This document shows, in pieces, positions 9,427 through 19,812 of a stretch of DNA of 64,000 nt. A program made the translations under genes and the position numbers. The notes under the pieces were generated by a model, which saw only the letters and a program-made list of their open reading frames with translations, was not told the DNA's origin and did no database searches. How positions within the stretch are numbered: the stretch's first letter is position 1; each line of letters begins with the position of its first letter. This DNA is from Streptomyces sp. NBC_00223 (GTDB taxonomy: Bacteria; Actinomycetota; Actinomycetes; Streptomycetales; Streptomycetaceae): positions 2,604,001 through 2,668,000 of the forward strand of contig NZ_CP108109.1 in the NCBI RefSeq assembly GCF_036199905.1, in the 5' to 3' direction.

Positions 9427-9550
9427 GTCATTCCCTCACCGACGGTGTTGCCTCTTCTTCGAGGTGCCCTGACTACGTCCACTGTCCCCCATTTGGCACG
9501 CGTGCGTGCACTCGGGGTCGGCCATCGGGCCGAAAAGTGGCACGGAGTGC

Positions 9551-11770
9551 CTATTTTGCGCCCTGGGACAGCCGATGGTCGAGAGCCGTGAAGCGTCTTC
9601 CGGCGGAAACCGTGCGTACCGCCTGCCCGATCGCACGGCGCGAGCCGACCAGTACGACCAGCTTCTTTGCCCTGGTGACAGCGGTGTAGAGCAGGTTGCG
9701 CTGGAGCATCATCCAGGCGCCCGTGGTGACGGGGATCACTACCGCCGGATACTCGCTGCCCTGCGAACGGTGGATCGTCACCGCGTAGGCATGGGTCAGC
9801 TCGTCCAGCTCGTCGAAGTCGTAGCCGACCTCCTCGTCCTCGTCGGTGCGCACGGTCAGCCGCTGCTCGACGGTGTCGAGTGCGGTGACCACGCCGACCG
9901 TGCCGTTGAAGACGCCGTTGGCGCCCTTGTCATAGTTGTTTCTGATCTGGGTGACCTTGTCCCCCACCCGGAAGGTACGGCCGCCGAACCTGCGCTCGGG
10001 CAGATCGGGGCGTGCGGGGGTGACGGCCTGCTGAAGCAGCCCGTTCAGCACTCCGGCCCCGGCCGGACCCCGGTGCATCGGAGCCAGGACCTGCACGTCC
10101 CGCCGCGGGTCGAGACCGAACCTGGCCGGAATCCGCCGGGCCACCACGTCCACCGTGAGCCGACCCGCCTCCTCCGAGTCCTCCTCGGCGAAGAGGAAGA
10201 AGTCGGGCAGCCCCTGGGTGATGGGCGGCACGCCGGAGTTGATCCGGTGCGCGTTGGTCACCACGCCGGACTGCTGGGCCTGCCGGAAGATCCGGGTGAG
10301 CCGTACCGCGGGGACCGGGCTGCCCGGTGCGAGCAGGTCCCGCAGCACCTCACCCGCGCCCACGCTCGGCAGCTGGTCGACGTCCCCGACGAACAGCAGA
10401 TGGGCGCCCGGTGGCACCGCCTTGGCCAGCTTGTTCGCGAGCAGCAGGTCGAGCATTGACGCCTCGTCGACCACCACCAGATCCGCGTCCAGCGGCCGGT
10501 CCTTGTCGTACGCCGCGTCACCGCCCGGCTTGAGCTCCAGCAGCCGGTGCACGGTGGACGCTTCGGCGCCGGTCAGCTCGGCCAGCCGCTTGGCCGCGCG
10601 GCCGGTCGGAGCGGCGAGCACCACCTTGGCCTTCTTCGCCCGGGCGAGGGCGACCACCGAACGCACGGTGAAGGACTTGCCGCAGCCCGGTCCGCCGGTG
10701 AGCACGGCGACCTTCTCGGTGAGCGCCAGCCGTACCGCCTGCTGCTGCTCGGGCGCGAGGTCGGTTCCCGTGGTGCCCGCGAGCCAGGTCAGCGCCTTGT
10801 CCCAGTCCACGTCCCGGAAGGCGGGCAGCCGATCCTCCGGGCCACGCAGCAGGCGCAGCAGTTGGGCGGCGAGCGAGATCTCCGCGCGGTGGAACGGCAC
10901 CAGGTAGACGGCCTTCACGGGCTCGCCGTCGCCGTCGGGCGCCGGTACGTTCTCGCGGACGACGCCTTCCTCGTCGGCGAGTTCGCCCAGACACTCGATG
11001 ACCAGGCCGGTGTCCACCTGAAGGAGTTTCACCGAGTCGGAGATGAGCCGTTCCTGGGGCAGGAAGCAGTTGCCGCTGTCGGTGGCCTGCGAAAGGGCGT
11101 ACTGGAGCCCCGCCTTGACCCGCTCCGGGCTGTCGTGCGGTATGCCGACCGCCTGGGCCAGCCGGTCCGCGGTCAGGAAGCCGATCCCCCAGACCTCGGC
11201 GGCCAGCCGGTACGGCTGGTTCTTCACCACGGAGATCGAGGCGTCCCCGTAACTCTTGTAGATCCGCACGGCGATGGACGTGGACACGCCCACTCCCTGC
11301 AGAAAGATCATCACCTCCTTGATCGCTTTTTGTTCCTCCCACGCGGCGGCTATCAGCTTTGTCCGCTTGGGGCCGAGGCCGGGCACCTCGACAAGCCGTT
11401 TGGGCTCGCTCTCGATGACGTCCAGCGTGCTGGTGCCGAAGTGCTCGACGATGCGCTCGGCGATCCGCGGGCCGATGCCCTTGATCAGCCCCGATCCCAG
11501 GTAGCGGCGGATCCCCTGGATCGTGGCCGGCAGGACAGTCGTGTAGTTCTCCACCGTGAACTGCTTGCCGTACTGCGGGTGCGATCCCCAACGGCCGTGC
11601 ATCCGCAGGGATTCACCCGGCTGAGCGCCGAGCAGCGCGCCGACGACCGTCAGCAGGTCCTCCGAGCCGCGGCCGGTGTCGACCCGCGCGACCGTGTAGC
11701 CGTTGTCCTCGTTGGCATACGTGATCCGTTCCAGGACGCCTTCCAGCACGGCAAGTCCCGTCTCCCCCAT
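9551..11770 (-). CDS. recD2: SF1B DNA helicase, RecD2-type
   Basis: A 739-residue 5'-3' helicase of the RecD2/TraA group that works without RecBC. In order: an N-terminal OB-like region (EGVLERITYANEDNGYTVARV), tandem helix-hairpin-helix segments (GIGPRIAERI; VPGLGPKRTKLI, about 98-140), Walker A GGPGCGKS at 359-366, Walker B DEAS at 435-438, and a C-terminal UvrD-like motif VI region (YAVTIHRSQGSEYPAVVIPV). ATG at 11770 has GGGAGG upstream; the frame runs further 5' but only as antisense of the neighbouring gene. A strong terminator separates it from the sugar operon. Confidence 0.92.
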   Translation of the reverse strand: MGETGLAVLEGVLERITYANEDNGYTVARVDTGRGSEDLLTVVGALLGAQPGESLRMHGRWGSHPQYGKQFTVENYTTVLPATIQGIRRYLGSGLIKGIGPRIAERIVEHFGTSTLDVIESEPKRLVEVPGLGPKRTKLIAAAWEEQKAIKEVMIFLQGVGVSTSIAVRIYKSYGDASISVVKNQPYRLAAEVWGIGFLTADRLAQAVGIPHDSPERVKAGLQYALSQATDSGNCFLPQERLISDSVKLLQVDTGLVIECLGELADEEGVVRENVPAPDGDGEPVKAVYLVPFHRAEISLAAQLLRLLRGPEDRLPAFRDVDWDKALTWLAGTTGTDLAPEQQQAVRLALTEKVAVLTGGPGCGKSFTVRSVVALARAKKAKVVLAAPTGRAAKRLAELTGAEASTVHRLLELKPGGDAAYDKDRPLDADLVVVDEASMLDLLLANKLAKAVPPGAHLLFVGDVDQLPSVGAGEVLRDLLAPGSPVPAVRLTRIFRQAQQSGVVTNAHRINSGVPPITQGLPDFFLFAEEDSEEAGRLTVDVVARRIPARFGLDPRRDVQVLAPMHRGPAGAGVLNGLLQQAVTPARPDLPERRFGGRTFRVGDKVTQIRNNYDKGANGVFNGTVGVVTALDTVEQRLTVRTDEDEEVGYDFDELDELTHAYAVTIHRSQGSEYPAVVIPVTTGAWMMLQRNLLYTAVTRAKKLVVLVGSRRAIGQAVRTVSAGRRFTALDHRLSQGAK

Positions 11771-11893
11771 GCCCGGCCTCCCTTCCCGGCTTCCGCGGTG
11801 ATCTGTTCCGAAGGTACCCGCAGACACGGACAGCGCGCTGAGCCGACGCCGTCCGCCTGTGGACAACTCGTTCCGCGCGCCCGCCAGGGCAGA

Positions 11894-11928
11894 CGAAAGG
11901 GGTCCGGCACGAGGCCGGACCCCTTTCG
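11894..11928 (-). terminator. Strong terminator at the end of the Gfo/DUF993/TIM operon
   Basis: CGAAAGGGGTCCGGC and GCCGGACCCCTTTCG form a perfect 15-bp stem around ACGAG. It lies between the TIM-barrel gene end (12073) and the recD2 start (11770). The 11771-12072 gap otherwise holds only C-rich sequence and a short AT-rich patch near 12058-12075. Confidence 0.85.
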
Positions 11929-12072
11929 CGTTCCCCCCACTACCCCCGAAGCCCCCCTCGGGCGTACCTACCCTCTTGGCTCCTCGAACCCCTCCCAGGA
12001 GCCGTGATGCCATGTACGACACGCCGTCGCCCGGAAGGGTTGTACTACGGGCGCCGAATTTCTCAAGATCTT

Positions 12073-12978
12073 TTAAAGGACGTGCCGCCGGTACCGGTCG
12101 GCGATCTCGGCGACCACCTCGCCGCCGTCCCGGGCCCACAACGCCGGGCTGAAGATCTCCACCTCCACCGCGCCGCGATAGCCCGCCGCGTCGACCCGCT
12201 CGCGGAAGCCGCGAAGGTCCACACATCCGTCGCCGAGCTGTCCACGGCCCAGCAGCACGCCTTCGGGCAGCGGCGTCACCCAGTCGGCCACTTGGAAGGC
12301 GGCGATCCGTCCGCCGGCTCCCGCCCGAGCGATGCCGGCGGGCGCGAGGTCGTCCCACCACAGGTGGTAGGTGTCCACGACGACGCCGACCCGGTCCGGG
12401 GGGAAGCATTCGGCGATGTCCAGGGCCTGGCCGAGAGTGGAGATCACGCACCGGTCGGAGGCGTACATCGGATGCAGTGGTTCGATCGCGAGACGCACCC
12501 CGCGTTCGGCCGCGTACGGCGCCAGGGTTCCGATCGCCTCCGCGACCCGCTCCCTGGCCGCAGCGATGTCACGGTCGCCTTCGGGCAGGCCCCCGGAGAC
12601 CAGAACGAGCGTGCCGGTCCCCAGGCCGGCCGCCTCGTCGATCGCCGCCCGGTTGTCGTCCAGCGCCCGCGCGCGGAGCCCGGGGTCGGCCACGGTGAAG
12701 AAGCCGCCGCGGCACAGTGATGTGACGGTGAGCCCGCTGTCCCGCATCAGCCGCGCGGCACGCTCGACGCCGTACTCCTGGACCGGGGCCCGCCACAGCC
12801 CGACCGAGGTGACCCCGGCAGCCGCGCAGCCCTCGGCGAGTTCGGGCAGGGACCACTGCTTGACGGTCTCCTGGTTGATGCTGAGCCGGGCGAAGTCAGG
12901 GGGTGTTCCGGCGGCTCCGGCGTCCTCGGTCATGGCGTCCCGGGTCGCGGGGCTTTGGCTCTTGGGCGCGTGGGTCAT
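12073..12978 (-). CDS. Sugar phosphate isomerase/epimerase-like TIM-barrel protein
   Basis: A 301-residue member of the AP-endonuclease-2/xylose-isomerase-like TIM-barrel family. Visible family features are the N-terminal LSINQETVKQWSLPELAEGCAAAG, a metal-ligand glutamate strand (RLAIEPLHP), VVVDTYHLWWD (Asp/His ligands) and the late EVEIFS strand. Relatives isomerise, epimerise or eliminate sugars and inositols. Its start codon overlaps the stop of the DUF993 gene by 4 nt (ATGA), so translation is coupled; it is the last gene of the operon. The specific reaction is unknown. Confidence 0.85.
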   Translation of the reverse strand: MTHAPKSQSPATRDAMTEDAGAAGTPPDFARLSINQETVKQWSLPELAEGCAAAGVTSVGLWRAPVQEYGVERAARLMRDSGLTVTSLCRGGFFTVADPGLRARALDDNRAAIDEAAGLGTGTLVLVSGGLPEGDRDIAAARERVAEAIGTLAPYAAERGVRLAIEPLHPMYASDRCVISTLGQALDIAECFPPDRVGVVVDTYHLWWDDLAPAGIARAGAGGRIAAFQVADWVTPLPEGVLLGRGQLGDGCVDLRGFRERVDAAGYRGAVEVEIFSPALWARDGGEVVAEIADRYRRHVL

Positions 12979-14129
12979 GCGTCGACTCCGTACACGGCGA
13001 GCAGATGGCGCATCCGGGCCTCGGCGAGCGCCGGATCGGGGAACAGGCCGATACGGTCCGCGAGTTCGTACGCGCGCGCCAGATGCGGCAGCGAACGCGC
13101 CGATTGCAGACCGCCCACCATGGTGAAGTGCGACTGGTGACCGGCCAGCCAGGCCAGCAGCACGACACCGGTCTTGTAGAAGCGGGTCGGTGGGCAGAAC
13201 AGGTGCCGGGACAGTTCGACGGTGGGGTCCAGGACGCGGCGGAATCCCGCGGCGTCTCCCGTGTCGAGGAGGCTGACAGCCGCCGCCGCCAGGGGCGCGA
13301 GCGGGTCGAAGATACCGAGCAGGGCATGGCTGAAGCCGCGCTCGTCACCCTCGATCAGCTCGGGGTAGTGGAAGTCGTCGCCGGTGTAGCAGCGGACCCC
13401 GGCGGGCAGGCGGCGGCGAAGCTCGACCTCGCGCTCCGCGTCCAGCAGCGAGATCTTGACACCGTCGACCTTGTCCGGATGGGCGGCGATCACGTCGAGG
13501 AAGGTCTCGGTCGCCGTGTCGAGGTCGCCGCTGCCCCAGTACCCCTCCAGGGCCGGGTCGAACATCGGACCGAGCCAGTGCAGGATCACCCGGTCGGAGG
13601 ACTGCCGCAGTAGGTGCCCGTACACCTCCAGGTAGTCGTCCGGGCCCTTGGCGACGGCAGCCAGCGCGCGGGACGCCATCAGGACGGCCTGGGACCCGGC
13701 AGCTTCCACAAGCGCCAACTGCTCCTCGTAGGCGGCTGTGACCTCCGCGAGCGTGGCCGCCGGACCGGTCAGCTGGTCGGTGCCGACACCGCACGCGATC
13801 CGCCCCCCGACGGAGCTCGCCTCGGCCGAGGACCTGCGGATCAGTTCGGCGGCCCCGGCCCAGTCCAGGCCCATGCCGCGCTGGGCGGTGTCCATCGCCT
13901 CGGCCACGCCGAGCCCGTGGGCCCACAGATGACGGCGGAAGGCGAGGGTGGCGTCCCAGTCGACGGCCACCGGGGCGTCGGCCGCGGTCCGCAGCGGATC
14001 GGCCACGACATGCGCGGCCGAGTACACCACCCGGCTGCGCAGCGGCGGATTCGCCGCAAAGGAGGCGGACTCCGAACGCGGCACATAGGGATGCGATTCG
14101 CCCGACGCGCCGGGCAGCAGGATGGTCAC
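12975..14129 (-). CDS. DUF993 / dihydrodipicolinate synthase-like protein
   Basis: A 384-residue protein that I recognise as the actinobacterial DUF993 group, distantly related to the dihydrodipicolinate synthase/N-acetylneuraminate lyase aldolase fold. Seen are the tract RSSAEA...GGRIACGVGTDQL, the barrel strands VILHWLGPMFDP and KVDGVKISLLD (a lysine in the position where class I aldolases keep their Schiff-base lysine), and GVRCYTGDDFHYPEL. GTG at 14129 overlaps the previous stop (GTGA), and its own stop overlaps the next ATG. Between a sugar dehydrogenase and an isomerase, an aldolase or lyase role is a reasonable inference, unproven. Confidence 0.8.
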   Translation of the reverse strand: MTILLPGASGESHPYVPRSESASFAANPPLRSRVVYSAAHVVADPLRTAADAPVAVDWDATLAFRRHLWAHGLGVAEAMDTAQRGMGLDWAGAAELIRRSSAEASSVGGRIACGVGTDQLTGPAATLAEVTAAYEEQLALVEAAGSQAVLMASRALAAVAKGPDDYLEVYGHLLRQSSDRVILHWLGPMFDPALEGYWGSGDLDTATETFLDVIAAHPDKVDGVKISLLDAEREVELRRRLPAGVRCYTGDDFHYPELIEGDERGFSHALLGIFDPLAPLAAAAVSLLDTGDAAGFRRVLDPTVELSRHLFCPPTRFYKTGVVLLAWLAGHQSHFTMVGGLQSARSLPHLARAYELADRIGLFPDPALAEARMRHLLAVYGVDA

Positions 14130-15277
14130 AGCGACAGCTCCGGCACATCGATGCGGCGGCCCTCCGCCGAGGACTTCAGACCGAGTTCGGCGAGCTGCAC
14201 CCCACGAGCTCCGGCCAGAAGGTCCCAGCGCCAGGGCTCGTCCAGCGCCACATGCCGGAGGAACAGCTCCCACTGCGCCTTGAAGCCGTTGTCGAACTCG
14301 GCGTTGTCGGGGACCTCCTGCCACTGGTCGCGGAAGGGCTCGGTGACGGGCAGATCCGGATTCCACACCGGTTTGGGGGTGGTGGAGCGGTGCTGGGCCC
14401 GGCAGTTGCGCAGCCCGGCGACCGCGGAGCCGTGGGTGCCGTCGACCTGGAACTCCACCAGTTCGTCGCGATTGACGCGAACGGCCCAGGACGAGTTGAT
14501 CTGCGCCACGGCGCCGCTGTCCAGTTCGAAGATCCCGTAGGCGGCGTCGTCCGCCGTGGCGTCGTACGGCTTGCCCTGCTCGTCCCAGCGCTGCGGAATG
14601 TGGGTGGCGGTGAGCGCCTGCACGCTGCGGACCCGGCCGAACAGCTCGTGGAGCACGTATTCCCAGTGCGGGAACATGTCGGCCACGATGCCGCCGCCGT
14701 CCTGCGCCCGGTAGTTCCACGAAGGGCGCTGGGCGCTCTGCCAATCGCCCTCGAAGACCCAGTAGCCGAACTCGCCGCGCACGGACAGGATGCGGCCGAA
14801 GAAGCCGCCGTCGATCAGGCGGCGGAGCTTGACCAGGCCGGGCAGGAAGAGCTTGTCCTGCACCACACCGTGCTTGACGCCGGCCGCGGTGGCGAGCCGG
14901 GCGAGTTCCAGGGCGCCGTCCAGCGTGGTGCCGGTGGGCTTCTCGCAGTAGATGTGCTTGCCCGCCGCGATGGCCAGCCGGACCGCTGACTCCCGGGCCG
15001 AGGTGACCTGCGCGTCGAAGTAGATCTCGACGGACGGGTCGGCCAGCACGGAATCCAGATCGGTGGTCCAGCGCTCGATGCCGTGCCGCTCGGCGATGGC
15101 GCGCAGTGCGTGCTCGCGCCTGCCGACCAGGACAGGCTCGGGCCACAGCGTCGTGCCGTCACCGAGGTCGAGCCCGCCCTGTTCCCGCAGGCTCAGGACA
15201 GAACGGACCAGGTGCTGCCGGTATCCCATGCGTCCGGTGACGCCGTTCATGGCGATCCGCACTGTCCTGCGTGTCAT
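14126..15277 (-). CDS. Gfo/Idh/MocA-family NAD(P)-dependent oxidoreductase
   Basis: A 383-residue sugar or inositol dehydrogenase-type enzyme. The N-terminal Rossmann domain starts RIAMNGVTGRMGYR (an unusual dinucleotide loop instead of GxGxxG). The family signature EKP is present in GKHIYCEKPTGTT, and the C-terminal alpha/beta domain includes GGGIVADMFPHWEYVLHELFG, the likely catalytic His region. ATG at 15277 follows GGGAGAGGG; an in-frame start at 15328 would overlap the operator sites. It is the first gene of a three-gene coupled operon, divergent from a LacI regulator. Confidence 0.9.
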   Translation of the reverse strand: MTRRTVRIAMNGVTGRMGYRQHLVRSVLSLREQGGLDLGDGTTLWPEPVLVGRREHALRAIAERHGIERWTTDLDSVLADPSVEIYFDAQVTSARESAVRLAIAAGKHIYCEKPTGTTLDGALELARLATAAGVKHGVVQDKLFLPGLVKLRRLIDGGFFGRILSVRGEFGYWVFEGDWQSAQRPSWNYRAQDGGGIVADMFPHWEYVLHELFGRVRSVQALTATHIPQRWDEQGKPYDATADDAAYGIFELDSGAVAQINSSWAVRVNRDELVEFQVDGTHGSAVAGLRNCRAQHRSTTPKPVWNPDLPVTEPFRDQWQEVPDNAEFDNGFKAQWELFLRHVALDEPWRWDLLAGARGVQLAELGLKSSAEGRRIDVPELSL

Positions 15278-15293
15278 AGGGCCCTCTCCCAGG

Positions 15294-15305
15294 TGAAGCG
15301 TTCGA
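15294..15305. promoter_or_regulatory. LacI-type operator candidate close to the dehydrogenase start
   Basis: TGAAGCGTTCGA lies 17 bp before the dehydrogenase start codon. It shares the TGAAGCG half with the sites at 2278 and 2366 and could be a weaker third site for the divergent LacI regulator. Confidence 0.4.
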
Positions 15306-15324
15306 TGGCAGTCAGCGATCTTTA

Positions 15325-15336
15325 GCAAGCGCTTTC
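15325..15336. promoter_or_regulatory. LacI operator, copy 1 of an identical pair
   Basis: GCAAGCGCTTTC contains the central palindrome AAGCGCTT and is repeated exactly at 15396-15407. It lies between the divergent dehydrogenase operon and lacI, upstream of the dehydrogenase start. Confidence 0.72.
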
Positions 15337-15395
15337 TTCCCTCTCACGCTAACCGCGAGAGGAGACTTCGGCAAGACACTGCCCGGGATGCGAGT

Positions 15396-15407
15396 GCAAG
15401 CGCTTTC
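15396..15407. promoter_or_regulatory. LacI operator, copy 2 of an identical pair
   Basis: Exact second copy of GCAAGCGCTTTC, 71 bp from the first. Two identical sites between divergent promoters fit repression with DNA looping and autoregulation by the adjacent LacI protein; binding is inferred. Confidence 0.72.
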
Positions 15408-15550
15408 TGCCATTTGATCCCCGCCTCCCGCATGCCGCCGTTCCCCCACTCGACCCCGAGGTGAGAGCATGTGCCGCGGCATGCGACGTCGCCCATCCGG
15501 CCCGACGCGCCGACAGCACGGCTCTTGTCGTAGAGGAGGACCGGACCGAG

Positions 15551-16639
15551 ATGGCAGTGACTCTGGCCGATGTCGCGGCGCGCGCCGGGGTGTCGTCGGC
15601 GACCGTCTCCCGGGTCCTCAACGGCAACTACCCGGTGGCCGGGAGCACCAAGGAGCGCGTCCAACGGGCCGTGGAGGAGCTGGACTACGTCGTCAACGGA
15701 CAGGCCCGCGCACTCGCCGCGGCCACCTCCGACCTCGTCGGCGTGCTGGTCAACGATGTCGCCGACCCGTTCTTCGGCCTCATCGCCAGCGCCCTGCAGG
15801 GCGAGATCGGCGCGGGAGGAGCCCGGCCGGGCGGCGGGAAGCTCGCCGTCGTCTGCAACACCGGCGGGTCGCCCGAGGCCGAACTCACCTATCTCACCCT
15901 CCTCGAACGCCAGCGCGCGGCGGGCGTGGTACTCACCGGCGGCGCCGTCGAGAGCGAGGAGCACACGGCGGCGGTCACGGCCCGGCTGGCCCGGCTGGCC
16001 GCTTCCGGCACCCGGATCGTGCTGTGCGGCCGCCCGCACCTGACGCTGCCGGATGCCTCGCTCGGGCTGATGACGGTCGCCTTCGACAACCGCGGGGGCG
16101 CGCGGCGGCTGACGGAACACCTGCTGTCGCTGGGGCATCGGCGGATCGGGTACGTGACCGGCCCGGTCGACCGCAGCACGACCCGGCACCGCCTCGAGGG
16201 CCACCGGGCGGCACTGGCCGCCCACGGCATGGGGCCGGACACGCGCGCGGGGGCGGACGCCGAGCGGCTGACGGTGCACGGCGGTTACGACCGGGCCTCG
16301 GGCTACGACGCCACGCTCGAACTGCTGCGCAGGGACCCGGAGGTGACGGCCGTCGTCGCCGCCAACGACACGGTGGCGCTCGGGGTGTGCGCGGCGCTGC
16401 GGGACCGTGGACTGAGTATTCCCGGCGATGTGTCGGTGGCCGGCTTCGACGATCTGCCGTTCAGCGTGGACGCCTCCCCGGCGCTCACCACGGTCCGCAT
16501 TCCGTTGCAGGAGGCCGGGACACGGGCCGGGCGGCTCGTGATGGGCCGGCTCTCCCCACCGCCGGGCGGAGTCGCCACCGTCGCCACCGAACTGATGGTC
16601 CGGGGGTCCACCGCACCGCCGGCGACCAGCGGTTCCTGA
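15551..16639 (+). CDS. LacI-family regulator of the divergent sugar operon
   Basis: A 362-residue LacI protein. The HTH is MAVTLADVAARAGVSSATVSRVLNG at the very N-terminus with the hinge ARALAA near residue 55, then the two-lobed ligand domain (LVGVLVNDVADPFFG; GHRRIGYVTGP; AVVAANDTVALGV; SVAGFDDLPFS). I set the start at ATG 15551 behind GAGGAGGA, 30 codons inside a longer open frame, because the HTH begins there. Divergent from the Gfo/DUF993/TIM operon, with the identical 12-bp sites between them. Inducer unknown. Confidence 0.92.
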   Translation: MAVTLADVAARAGVSSATVSRVLNGNYPVAGSTKERVQRAVEELDYVVNGQARALAAATSDLVGVLVNDVADPFFGLIASALQGEIGAGGARPGGGKLAVVCNTGGSPEAELTYLTLLERQRAAGVVLTGGAVESEEHTAAVTARLARLAASGTRIVLCGRPHLTLPDASLGLMTVAFDNRGGARRLTEHLLSLGHRRIGYVTGPVDRSTTRHRLEGHRAALAAHGMGPDTRAGADAERLTVHGGYDRASGYDATLELLRRDPEVTAVVAANDTVALGVCAALRDRGLSIPGDVSVAGFDDLPFSVDASPALTTVRIPLQEAGTRAGRLVMGRLSPPPGGVATVATELMVRGSTAPPATSGS

Positions 16640-16729
16640 AGTTATCCACAGGCCGGGAACGGGCTCTTCCGCCCTGTCGCACCGCGGGTCTACCTTTGAC
16701 TCAGGCAAAGGAAATTCGGGAGGTGGGTC

Positions 16730-17650
16730 ATGGCCGTACGGGAGATCCGCGAGTTCAACCGCTTTTACACCAATCTGATCGGCGCGCTCGACTACAGCCG
16801 CCACCTGCACACGCCGTTCACGCTGACCGAGGCACGGGTGCTGTACGAGTTGGCGCACGTGCCCCGCACCGACGCGGCGGATCTGCGGGTGGAGTTGTCG
16901 CTGGACGCGGGCCATCTCAGCCGGATGCTCGCGAAGTTCGAGGAGCAGCAGCTCGTCACGCGCGGGCCCTCCGCGCAGGACGCCAGGCGGCAGCGGATCG
17001 CGCTGACCACGCGTGGTCGGGAGGCCGCCTCGCTGCTGGAGGAGCGCTCCGAGGAAGCCGTGGGCGGTCTGCTCGGCCGGATACCGGCGGACGACCGGTC
17101 GCGTCTGACCGAGGCGATGCGTACCGTCCGCGAGATACTGCACGACGACGGACGGGCCGATGCCGTGCCGCGGGTCGTCCTGCGCGGCCCGCGCCCCGGC
17201 GACCTGGGCTGGGCCGTCGAGCGCAATGCCGAGGTCTACGCGACCGAGTTCGGCTGGAACGAGGAGTACGAGGCACTGGTCGCGCGCATCGTCGCGGACT
17301 TCGCCACCACCCGTGATCCGCGGCGCGAGGCCATGTGGGTTGCCGAACTCGACGGCCGAAGGGCCGGTTGTGTCTTCTGCGTGCGTGACGAGGCACCGGA
17401 CACGGCACGGCTTCGGCTGCTGCTGGTCGATCCGGTGGCGCGGGGCCACGGCATAGGCGGGCGGCTGGTGGATTCCTGCGTCGAATTCGCCCGCAAGGCC
17501 GCCTACTCCGAACTCGTCCTGTGGACCAATGACGTACTGACCGACGCCCGCAGGATCTATCAGCGCGCGGGTTTCGAACTCGTCGCCGAGCGGCCGCATC
17601 ACAGCTTCGGCCGGCAGCTCGTGGGCCAGGACTGGCGCCTGGTGCTGTAG
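16730..17650 (+). CDS. MarR-GNAT fusion protein (regulator plus acetyltransferase)
   Basis: A 306-residue two-domain protein. Residues 1-140 form a MarR-type winged helix (TLTEARVLYELAHVP; LSLDAGHLSRMLAKFEEQQLVTR; RRQRIALTTRGREA). Residues 150-306 form a GNAT N-acetyltransferase with the acetyl-CoA loop VARGHGIGGRLVD (R-x-x-G-x-G type) and the late IYQRAGFELV strand. The fusion is a known actinobacterial and proteobacterial architecture; the acetyl acceptor and target genes are unknown. ATG at 16730 has GGGAGGTG upstream. Confidence 0.88.
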   Translation: MAVREIREFNRFYTNLIGALDYSRHLHTPFTLTEARVLYELAHVPRTDAADLRVELSLDAGHLSRMLAKFEEQQLVTRGPSAQDARRQRIALTTRGREAASLLEERSEEAVGGLLGRIPADDRSRLTEAMRTVREILHDDGRADAVPRVVLRGPRPGDLGWAVERNAEVYATEFGWNEEYEALVARIVADFATTRDPRREAMWVAELDGRRAGCVFCVRDEAPDTARLRLLLVDPVARGHGIGGRLVDSCVEFARKAAYSELVLWTNDVLTDARRIYQRAGFELVAERPHHSFGRQLVGQDWRLVL

Positions 17651-17916
17651 GACACCTTGGCATTCGGCGCCAGGCGGCCCGGCTGCCGCACTCCTGACAG
17701 CCCGTCAGGCGTGGGGGCGGACATGCCCGGCTCTCTGCGCCGACTGGACGCACGCGCGGTACCCGCCGAACGGGTGGTGGACACCACCGGCCTTGTCGCG
17801 GCGGGAGAGCATCCGAGGGCGACACCCGGCTGGTGGCGCTGCGACCAGGCGTCGGCGCAGTTCCCCGAAGGGCGGAGGTGGCGCGTGAACAGGGCGCTGT
17901 CCGGGACCGATCCCGT
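17651..17916. other. Intergenic region before the TIM-barrel gene
   Basis: A short open frame on the plus strand (17657-17920) is present but has no ribosome-binding site or recognisable fold; I treat the stretch as non-coding. Nothing else is apparent before the promoter at 17917. Confidence 0.4.
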
Positions 17917-17945
17917 TTGACCGGACTTCACCCGGTGCCTAGTGT
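17917..17945 (+). promoter_or_regulatory. Promoter giving a probably leaderless transcript
   Basis: TTGACC (17917-17922), a 17-nt spacer and TAGTGT (17940-17945) match a vegetative sigma promoter. The -10 box ends 7 nt before ATG 17953, so transcription should start at or next to the A of the start codon. No Shine-Dalgarno sequence precedes that ATG. Confidence 0.68.
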
Positions 17946-17952
17946 CCGGCGA

Positions 17953-18750
17953 ATGAAACTCGCCTTCTCCACTCTGGGAGTCCCCGCCCTGCCCATCGAC
18001 CAGGTGGTACGGCTCGCCGCAGAGCACGGCTACCACGGCGTCGAACTGCGCGCGAGCGATGAGGAACCGGTGCACACCGGGCTGTCGGCCGGTGAACGGG
18101 CCCGTGTCGCCGGGCAGTTCGCCGAGGCCGGGATCGAGATCCTGGCAGTGGCCGCCTACGCCAAGGTGGCCGCGCCGGGGGACGACAACCCGGTCCTGGA
18201 AGAGGTCGGGGCGGCGATGACGCTCGCGGCCGACCTGGGAGCGTCCTTCGTCCGGGTCTTCCCCGGCGGCGGGGACGCGAGCCCGCAGGAGGCGGACGCC
18301 CGCGCCGCGCGCAGGCTCGCGGCGGTAGCACCCGTCGCCGACGACCTCGGGGTGCGGGTGCTGCTGGAGACGCACGACTCGCACCGGGGAGGCGCGGACG
18401 TGGCCCGGGTGCTGGGCACGGTGGGACATCGGGCCATCGGGGCGATCTGGGACGTGATGCACACCTGGCTGGCCGGGGAGCAGCCGTCGGTGACGTATCC
18501 GGTGCTCGCGCCCTACTTGGGCTATGTCCAGGTCAAGGACATCGCCTCGGCTGTCGACACCACCCCGCTGCCGCTGGGGGCGGGAGTGCTGCCACTCGCC
18601 GAGACGGTCGAGGTGCTCAGCAGGGCGGACTGGGACGGTTGGCTCTGCTGGGAGTACGAGAAGCGGTGGTTCGGCCAGGCCGCGGATCTGGCCGGGCTGC
18701 TGGGTCCGGCGCGGGAGCATCTGTCGCGGCTGCTCTCCGAGTCGGCCTGA
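17953..18750 (+). CDS. Sugar phosphate isomerase/epimerase-like TIM-barrel protein
   Basis: A 265-residue xylose-isomerase-like TIM barrel. Seen are MKLAFSTLGVPALPIDQVVRLAAEHGYHGVELR at the N-terminus, the metal-binding glutamate strand VRVLLETHDSH, AIWDVMHTW (Asp/His), YVQVKDI and the late WLCWEYEKRW. Homologues act on sugars or inositols; the substrate here is unknown. The start was chosen at 17953 because the first beta strand begins there and a -10 box lies 7 nt upstream; longer in-frame starts lack support. It is followed at 47 bp by a LysR gene in the same direction. Confidence 0.85.
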   Translation: MKLAFSTLGVPALPIDQVVRLAAEHGYHGVELRASDEEPVHTGLSAGERARVAGQFAEAGIEILAVAAYAKVAAPGDDNPVLEEVGAAMTLAADLGASFVRVFPGGGDASPQEADARAARRLAAVAPVADDLGVRVLLETHDSHRGGADVARVLGTVGHRAIGAIWDVMHTWLAGEQPSVTYPVLAPYLGYVQVKDIASAVDTTPLPLGAGVLPLAETVEVLSRADWDGWLCWEYEKRWFGQAADLAGLLGPAREHLSRLLSESA

Positions 18751-18797
18751 CAGACACGGAAGCGGGGAGGTACGGGAACGGACGAAAGGGGGGTCAG

Positions 18798-19718
18798 ATG
18801 CTCGATCTGGGGCGGCTGAGGGCGCTGCACGCCGTGCACACCCACGGTTCGGTGGGCGCGGCGGCCGCGGCGCTCGGTTACACGCCGTCGGCGGTGTCCC
18901 AGCAGATCGCCAAGCTGGAGCGGGAGACCGGGACGGTGCTGCTGGAGCGTCAGGGACGCGGGGTGGCGCTCACCGACGCGGCGGAGCTGCTGGTCGCGAC
19001 GGCGCAGCGGCTGATGGCGATCGTGGAGGCGGCCGAGGTCGCGCTGGAGGAGCAGCGCGGCCGGCCGACCGGGCGGTTGTCGGTGGCGGCCTTCCCGACC
19101 GCGGCCTGTGGGCTGCTTCCTCCGGTGCTGGCCTCACTGGCGGCCGCGTATCCGGCGCTGGACCTGCGGCTGACCGAGGTGGACTCCCATGTCTCGGTGG
19201 AGTTGGCGGCCCGCGGTGCCGTGGACCTGGCGGTGGCGCACGACTGGGACATCGCGCCGCTGCCCGCGCCGGAGGGGCTGGAGCGGGCGGTCATCGGGGA
19301 CGACCGGTGCGATGTGCTGGTGCCCGTGGGCCATCCGCTGGCCGCACGGCAGTCGTTGGTGCGGGCCGATGTGGCGCGGGAGCGGTGGATCTGCCAGCCG
19401 TCCGGTTCGGTGTGCCACGAATGGCTGGTGCGGACACTGCGGGAGTCGGGCACGGAACCCGATCTGGCGTATCAGGTCGGCGAGTACCGCACCCAGGTGG
19501 CGCTGGTCCAGGCGGGGCTCGGTATCGCGCTGGTACCGCGGCTGGGACGCGGGCCGATACCCGAGGGAGTGAGCGTGGTGGCGCTGGAACCGGCGCCGGT
19601 ACGGCGGCTGTACGCCTTGTGGCGCGCGGGCGCGTCACGCAGGCCGTCGATCGCGGTGGCCGTCGACACGCTGCGGGCGCACTGGCCGGCTGCGGTCCGA
19701 TCGGGCGCGGACCGGTGA
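18798..19718 (+). CDS. LysR-family transcriptional regulator
   Basis: A 306-residue LysR-type regulator. The N-terminal winged HTH (MLDLGRLRALHAVHTHGSVGAAAAALGYTPSAVSQQIAKLERETG) is textbook for the family and is followed by the substrate-binding domain with the GRLSVAAFPTAACGLLPP strand and the IALVPRLG segment. ATG at 18798 follows an AAAGGGGGG ribosome-binding stretch. It is co-directional with the TIM-barrel gene, which it may regulate, although LysR genes are more often divergent from their targets. Inducer unknown. Confidence 0.9.
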   Translation: MLDLGRLRALHAVHTHGSVGAAAAALGYTPSAVSQQIAKLERETGTVLLERQGRGVALTDAAELLVATAQRLMAIVEAAEVALEEQRGRPTGRLSVAAFPTAACGLLPPVLASLAAAYPALDLRLTEVDSHVSVELAARGAVDLAVAHDWDIAPLPAPEGLERAVIGDDRCDVLVPVGHPLAARQSLVRADVARERWICQPSGSVCHEWLVRTLRESGTEPDLAYQVGEYRTQVALVQAGLGIALVPRLGRGPIPEGVSVVALEPAPVRRLYALWRAGASRRPSIAVAVDTLRAHWPAAVRSGADR

Positions 19719-19812
19719 TGATCAGGGCATGCGCCCACGATGTCCGCACCGCCGACGGTGGCCGGCCGGCCGCCGTACGGAACCGGTCCGTGGCGCGGCC
19801 CGTCCCATCGGC

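Follow-up and report, generated by a model that had tools for sequence, protein, structure and literature searches.

The window analysed here, a stretch of 64,000 nucleotides from Streptomyces sp. NBC_00223 (contig NZ_CP108109.1, positions 2,604,001 to 2,668,000), carries on its minus strand, between positions 12073 and 15277, three genes read in the order dehydrogenase, DUF993 protein and PF01261 barrel. The first (14126-15277, with its ATG start codon at 15277) encodes a Gfo/Idh/MocA-family NAD(P)-dependent dehydrogenase of 383 aa (Pfam PF22725, PF02894 and PF01408). The second (12975-14129) encodes a 384-aa protein of the family DUF993 (PF06187), which a structural model and alignment assign to the barrels of the dihydrodipicolinate synthase (DHDPS) superfamily, with K225 as candidate Schiff-base lysine. 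The third (12073-12978) encodes a xylose-isomerase-like barrel of 301 aa, PF01261 by Pfam and by structure matches, with a putative metal site at E166, D202, Q229 and E274. Divergently from the operon, on the plus strand, lies the LacI-family regulator gene lacI (15551-16639; 362 aa; PF00356 and PF13377). Stop and start codons overlap by 4 nt at both joints, as GTGA at 14126-14129 between dehydrogenase and DUF993 and as ATGA at 12975-12978 between DUF993 and barrel. The order, strand and domains of the three-gene operon and of lacI had been given in a preliminary description and are confirmed by the open reading frames and Pfam, as are both overlaps by the sequence itself. That description had also closed the operon with a terminator of 15-bp stem. 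A terminator-like hairpin is indeed present downstream on the minus strand (11893-11929, 144-180 nt past the final stop codon), but its stem measures 16 bp with a 5-nt loop, it lies outside the interval 12073-16639 then assigned to the unit, and it is not listed by a consensus terminator scan because it lacks a T-run. The 61-nt stretch containing the hairpin folds with a z-score of -4.75 against 200 shuffles, and in an Rfam scan of 9500-19800 no family reached its gathering score.

Conservation of the unit was followed by tblastn with the window proteins, a dehydrogenase being counted when it lay within 3.5 kb of DUF993 on the same strand. The dehydrogenase accompanies DUF993 in all 80 streptomycete loci, in all eight further genomes of the same family from the phylum survey, in the three order relatives taken and in all 14 other actinobacterial loci of that survey (of 15 with a match, the marginal G334 was left out). 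The barrel was found near DUF993 in the same 80, eight and three loci, in 13 of the 14 others, where the single miss (L107) stands at a contig end, and in 17 of 20 plasmid records. These plasmid loci, 10 of which have the dehydrogenase near DUF993, were hand-picked from 147 records and are not independent, two Paracoccus records, for example, being near-identical here. DUF993 itself is scattered through actinobacteria and proteobacteria, with an occurrence of 38/41 in the genome of the window and its 40 relatives, 24/296 in the phylum-wide set, which counts the genome of the window, and 147/72,556 in plasmid records. The view that the three genes form one unit is thus upheld by their recurrence in streptomycete and other actinobacterial loci, with dehydrogenase and barrel linked to DUF993 in nearly all actinobacterial loci examined. 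The preliminary description had named DUF993 genes without any such link in other genomes as the outcome that would refute it, and this outcome did not arise. Chance co-location was considered and rejected, the trio recurring in 80 of 80 streptomycete loci. In genome G048 both DUF993 and the dehydrogenase are split into pieces (L119/L106) and in G016 DUF993 is split (G016:C1:2808929-2809991); these splits are decay or assembly errors. On an Arthrobacter plasmid (L138) no barrel was found near DUF993, and a glycerate kinase gene directly follows DUF993.

The gap between lacI and the dehydrogenase gene is 273 bp long and holds, on the minus strand, two exact copies of AGAAAGCGCTTGC located 71 bp apart, a palindromic candidate operator placed between regulator and operon. 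Putative operator 1 covers 15323-15338 and includes AGCAAGCGCTTTCT, putative operator 2 covers 15394-15409, and both are annotated without a strand. In 76 of the 80 streptomycete loci a LacI match is found no more than 5 kb from DUF993. For the operators 75 of the 80 loci were testable, since in three (L045, L070 and L074) the best LacI match lies elsewhere and two (L041 and L080) have no LacI match. In every one of these 75 loci, where lacI adjoins the dehydrogenase gene, the core AAGCGCTT is found inside the gap; the 14-mer AGAAAGCGCTTGCT is there in 66, the 16-mer TAGAAAGCGCTTGCTA in 30, and two operator sites per gap in six. Because the operator copies stand in the gap and the core is kept in all 75 loci, control of the operon by LacI is very likely on sequence grounds, and the earlier label 'LacI-controlled' gains support as a probable one.

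A wider LacI regulon including glycoside hydrolase family 3 (GH3) genes was not upheld. The exact GCAAGCGCTTTC occurs at three further places in the genome of the window, two of which sit at GH3 genes whose products look secreted and carry F5/8 domains (G000:C1:170818 and 4054443, handled as L157 and L158, each with the exact operator core). However, the 12-mer GNAAGCGCTTNC is found at nine places of this genome versus 13 for the reversed control, that is, with no genome-wide enrichment, and the off-operon sites of relatives disagree with GH3. Across 35 genomes of the genus, 39 places carry the 14-mer AGAAAGCGCTTGCT and none its reversed control. Fourteen of these places were fetched, five at the operon and nine off it, and the remaining 25 adjoin DUF993 matches, as judged by coordinates. 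At the nine off-operon places, with 5.0-7.0 kb fetched for each, no similarity to the two GH3 proteins was found. Other LacI paralogues may share the operator motif.

The dehydrogenase has the Rossmann domain and the GFO C-terminal domain of its family, with 38.0 bits for PF01408 (cut-off 24), 87.8 for PF22725 (27) and 59.4 for PF02894 (22.9). Its closest solved structure, 3oqb (E 7.6e-156), is titled only 'Oxidoreductase', and the EKP motif and the D and H of GGG-x3-D-x3-H are kept in at least 98% of 39 dehydrogenase sequences. The barrel matches PF01261 with 146 bits (cut-off 31.1), and its model (pLDDT 86.5) is nearest to the solved structures 7vpf, 3qc0 and 3ju2, followed by IolI (Z 27.0) and the QuiC-type 5hmq (Z 25.7). 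Among the 45 sequences kept of 124, E166, D202 and E274 are unvarying, whereas position 229 carries Q in 28 of them and H in the other 17; the putative metal site expected for the barrel appears in this way to be retained as E-D-(Q/H)-E. All four ligand positions fall on identical residues in pairwise BLAST alignments with two QuiC-like proteins (L179 and L180), both of which score below the cut-off of the QuiC model NF042435; the barrel itself reaches 36.5 bits against that model, versus a cut-off of 1200. Enzymes of the PF01261 type abstract a proton beside a ketone, as in epimerisation and dehydration, so the barrel step would suit a position after the dehydrogenase.

The DUF993 protein matches PF06187 over profile positions 2-382 of 382 (596.8 bits, E 2.1e-179; gathering score 24 bits). 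Its AlphaFold model (pLDDT 79.1, pTM 0.77), built on the window protein aligned to 35 streptomycete sequences, is closest to 4dnh, the SMc04132 protein of Sinorhizobium meliloti (Z 44.7, 55% identity). It also shares the whole-length barrel fold of DHDPS-family chains at 10-16% identity; about 285 residues are matched with Z about 28, and the best such chain stands at rank 2 in Foldseek (E 1.4e-8) with a VIA Z of about 28. When profiles are aligned with five DHDPS-family proteins, of which four are encoded in this genome and one is an L125 neighbour, K225 (VDGVKIS) falls on the DHDPS catalytic lysine (probability 72.7%, E 3.9e-6) and the GDD stretch is aligned as well. K225 lies in the predicted barrel strand 221-227 and is unvarying in the 48 sequences (query included) kept of 127 distinct ones; by alignment and conservation it would be the Schiff-base lysine that the DHDPS superfamily carries on strand 6. 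Equally unvarying in 48/48 are D80, T81, Q83, R84, T117, D118, S153, R154, H184 and W185, as well as S227, D251, D252, Y318 and K319.

In DHDPS the GTTGE stretch binds the pyruvate carboxylate, and a tyrosine is catalytic. By our reading of the alignment, made at 10-16% identity, we take the GTTGE stretch to correspond to D80-T81-A/S-Q83-R84 of DUF993 and the tyrosine to H184, where D-T-A/S-Q-R and a histidine stand in place of the pyruvate-type motif. Because both the carboxylate motif and the tyrosine position are replaced, DUF993 is unlikely to be a pyruvate aldolase; we read it as a candidate Schiff-base enzyme whose substrate would be other than a pyruvate-type acid. The description 'aldolase-like' therefore holds for the DHDPS/N-acetylneuraminate lyase fold and the unvarying lysine within a predicted strand of the barrel, and fails for the active site, which is unlike that of pyruvate aldolases. 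As to the statement that the family has no known function, no paper naming DUF993 was found in the open-access literature, but the structure has been solved (4dnh) and plasmid records annotate the protein as 'dihydrodipicolinate synthase family protein'.

Glycerate kinases of PF02595 were searched for in 16 DUF993-bearing actinobacterial genomes outside the streptomycetes. Thirteen came from the 15 in the phylum survey, leaving out G267 (a fragment at a contig end) and G334 (the marginal match), and three from the 14 order relatives with a match. Such a kinase lies within 13.5 kb of DUF993 in seven of the 16 genomes versus 0.13 expected (P about 1e-10), and within 7 kb in six versus 0.07, the expectation being computed from genome size and kinase number. 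In L124, L129 and L136 the glycerate kinase gene comes immediately after the trio. Among the 20 plasmid loci, a PF02595 kinase is near DUF993 in two (L136 and L138) and a MOFRL/DUF4147 glycerate kinase in five (L111, L114, L139, L141 and L142; three verified with Pfam, the other two named from similarity and annotation), so that seven of the 20 have one family or the other. Because two distinct kinase families occupy the same place, these neighbours point to glycerate as a product of the pathway.

Other partners were counted with tblastn across the 37 loci L111-L147; crude gene calls, with genes missed and starts wrong, served only for choosing stretches. Enolase-superfamily genes are near the trio in six of them (L117, L118, L122, L125, L126 and L144), directly before it in L117 and L118, the L118 protein having no Pfam match and being named by annotation and similarity. 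KdgD-like genes are found in L122, L125 and L126, and tripartite tricarboxylate or tripartite ATP-independent periplasmic (TRAP) carriers in L115, L117 and L139; this company of genes suggests that an acid substrate is favoured. A CoA-transferase is near the trio in eight of the 20 plasmid loci and an acyl-CoA dehydrogenase in six. The operon had been described as free of kinase and transporter genes, which is true in this genome; elsewhere glycerate kinases and ABC, TRAP, tripartite tricarboxylate and major facilitator superfamily (MFS) carriers are nearby. Twenty neighbouring proteins compared with NCBIfam were mostly below cut-off, those above it being NF002958, 5-dehydro-4-deoxyglucarate dehydratase (L125), UxaC (L128), NF009386, 3-ketoacyl-ACP reductase (L111) and TIGR00045, glycerate kinase (L136).

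Some of these neighbourhoods deserve a word of their own. Three enolase-superfamily genes (L117:7408-8838, L118:7396-8781 and L144:9984-11402), with weak or no Pfam match and placed directly before or within the trio, form a divergent group that may be a fourth enzyme of the pathway. In L128 (G235) the trio lies within a large cluster with GH4, glucuronate isomerase, a D-2-hydroxyacid dehydrogenase, two more PF01261 barrels, a sugar ABC importer and a LacI gene, a promising place to look for the substrate. In L138 a GMC enzyme upstream of DUF993 shows a weak pyranose-oxidase match (61.8 bits versus a cut-off of 544.9), and in L121 a PfkB-family kinase is near the trio.

From this evidence we consider it an even call that the three genes, repressed by LacI, serve the breakdown of a polyhydroxylated compound, the likeliest candidates being a sugar acid and a sugar that is converted into one, and that oxidation, rearrangement and Schiff-base C-C cleavage would lead to glycerate. 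In the first step the Gfo/Idh enzyme would use NAD(P)+ to turn a secondary alcohol into a ketone. The carbon beside this ketone would next be the target of the PF01261 enzyme, which would hold a divalent metal by E166, D202, Q229 and E274 and act by epimerisation, dehydration or a ketone/aldehyde shift. K225 of DUF993 would then form a Schiff base with the ketone, upon which a neighbouring C-C bond would be broken. One product would be glycerate or its direct precursor, converted to phosphoglycerate by a glycerate kinase that in Streptomyces would be encoded elsewhere in the genome. LacI, sitting on the two operators, would repress the operon until the substrate or an intermediate binds to it. 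We put forward more tentatively, as a possibility rather than an expectation, that DUF993 represents a new reaction type of the DHDPS superfamily, namely Schiff-base cleavage of non-pyruvate keto-sugars or keto-sugar-acids by retro-aldol or retro-Claisen chemistry. It would be the core of an undescribed and widespread route from sugar acids to glycerate, existing in a free-substrate version with Gfo/Idh and in a version with acyl-CoA dehydrogenase, short-chain dehydrogenase/reductase (SDR) and CoA-transferase (rhizobial, Sagittula and Paracoccus).

Several observations weigh against the glycerate module. With tblastn no glycerate kinase was found near any of the 80 streptomycete loci, for which flanks of up to 10 kb were fetched, or shorter ones where the contig ended. 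The sole PF02595 gene of this genome lies 1.3 Mb from the operon, and the kinase linkage is missing in nine of the 16 genomes as well as in 13 of the 20 plasmid records. The carriers near the unit vary among sugar ABC, ribose-type ABC, NMT1 ABC, TRAP, tripartite tricarboxylate and MFS types, and with such a variety of neighbours it is hard to see one substrate shared by all. Ten of the 20 plasmid records lack the Gfo/Idh gene, and six of these ten have acyl-CoA dehydrogenase and SDR genes instead (with electron-transfer flavoprotein genes in five), and the DUF993 proteins of these six form one cluster in the tree; this replacement is unexplained by plain sugar oxidation. Finally, the sequence-profile support for kinship of DUF993 with DHDPS is modest.

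An unlikely alternative is a 3-keto-glycoside elimination as in levoglucosan use, in which the dehydrogenase would oxidise C3 of a glycoside, the PF01261 enzyme would eliminate glycerate as the aglycone (of glucosylglycerate or mannosylglycerate, for example) and DUF993 would handle the keto-sugar. Two enzyme families match LgdA and LgdB (PMC10066097), levoglucosan dehydrogenase (NF052479) is the top NCBIfam row of the dehydrogenase, though with 70.8 bits versus a cut-off of 650, and the pyranose-oxidase-like GMC enzyme of L138 and the GH4 and UxaC of L128 would agree with it. A neutral glycoside, however, is at odds with the carboxylate carriers and the enolase-superfamily neighbours of the trio, the words 'Dihydrodipicolinate' and 'aldolase' do not occur in the main text of PMC10066097, and DUF993, by which the loci were found, would become secondary.

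We lend equally little credence to the proposal that DUF993 is an ordinary DHDPS-type aldolase or dehydratase turning 2-keto-3-deoxy sugar acids into pyruvate. The fold, the lysine and the enolase-superfamily and KdgD-like genes of L122, L125 and L126 are what it would predict; the replaced GTTGE stretch, with D, T, Q and R in 48/48 sequences, and the histidine in 48/48 at the tyrosine position argue against it, as far as our reading of these positions goes, and L125 has a separate KdgD-subfamily gene, above the cut-off of NF002958 and below that of TIGR03249. Degradation of an inositol-like cyclitol, by IolG-like oxidation, an IolE/IolI-like step and ring opening by DUF993, is highly improbable: IolI is the nearest named barrel structure after the orthologues (Z 27.0, 19% identity) and inositol 2-dehydrogenase comes second among the NCBIfam rows for the dehydrogenase, but its 53 bits are far under the cut-off of 355, and no iol-annotated gene was found in the annotated neighbourhoods.

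Beyond lacI the window continues on the plus strand with a gene whose product fuses a MarR winged-helix domain to a GNAT acetyltransferase domain by Pfam (16730-17650), found in the fetched flanks of 29 of the 80 streptomycete loci. Behind it, 1.3 kb past lacI, stands a second PF01261 barrel gene (17953-18750, plus strand); 53 of the 80 loci have a similar barrel in their fetched flanks.

What we regard as real is a conserved operon for an orphan pathway, made of known kinds of enzyme with a remodelled DHDPS-type active site, and what is new is the operator pair and the prediction of glycerate as product for an uncharacterised operon. With a predicted product, a candidate catalytic lysine and a candidate operator named, its function is directly testable.

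The preliminary description had called the operon a candidate undescribed pathway, in agreement with the open-access PubMed Central (PMC) literature, in which no relevant paper was found for DUF993, PF06187 or the structure codes, although subscription papers could exist. The solved relatives of all three proteins carry no assigned reaction. In S. meliloti, SMc04130 (3ju2/3qc0) is a relative of the barrel at 47% and SMc04132 (4dnh) of DUF993 at 55%, the structure entries having titles without function. SMc04132 and SMc04133 are tabled with negative values among AniA/PhaR-affected genes (PMC12542648), and the open-access passages that mention SMc04130-04135 do so without a function. The QuiC-type 3-dehydroshikimate dehydratase (5hmq) and IolI (1i60) share the fold of the barrel, and QuiC-like proteins also its metal-ligand positions, but identity is 19-23% and the QuiC model is far from reached. 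The levoglucosan system LgdA/LgdB/LgdC shares a Gfo/Idh dehydrogenase and a PF01261 enzyme (PMC10066097); it differs in that no aldolase-type member is named there and that the passages on the pathway give no glycerate step. The oxidative deoxyribonate pathways (PMC6365646) are alike in passing from a sugar acid to a keto acid, in cleavage, in a final glycerate kinase and in having free-acid and CoA-bound versions, but none of the three families of the operon was found in the passages on them, and 'Gfo' and 'isomerase' are absent from the main text. Neither pathway matches the operon in membership. With the DHDPS/N-acetylneuraminate lyase superfamily (PF00701) DUF993 shares the whole-length fold, the strand-6 lysine and the GDD stretch, and it differs by its own Pfam family, by the low identity and by its replaced carboxylate motif and tyrosine; if our reading is true, a non-pyruvate Schiff-base enzyme would extend the textbook DHDPS superfamily.

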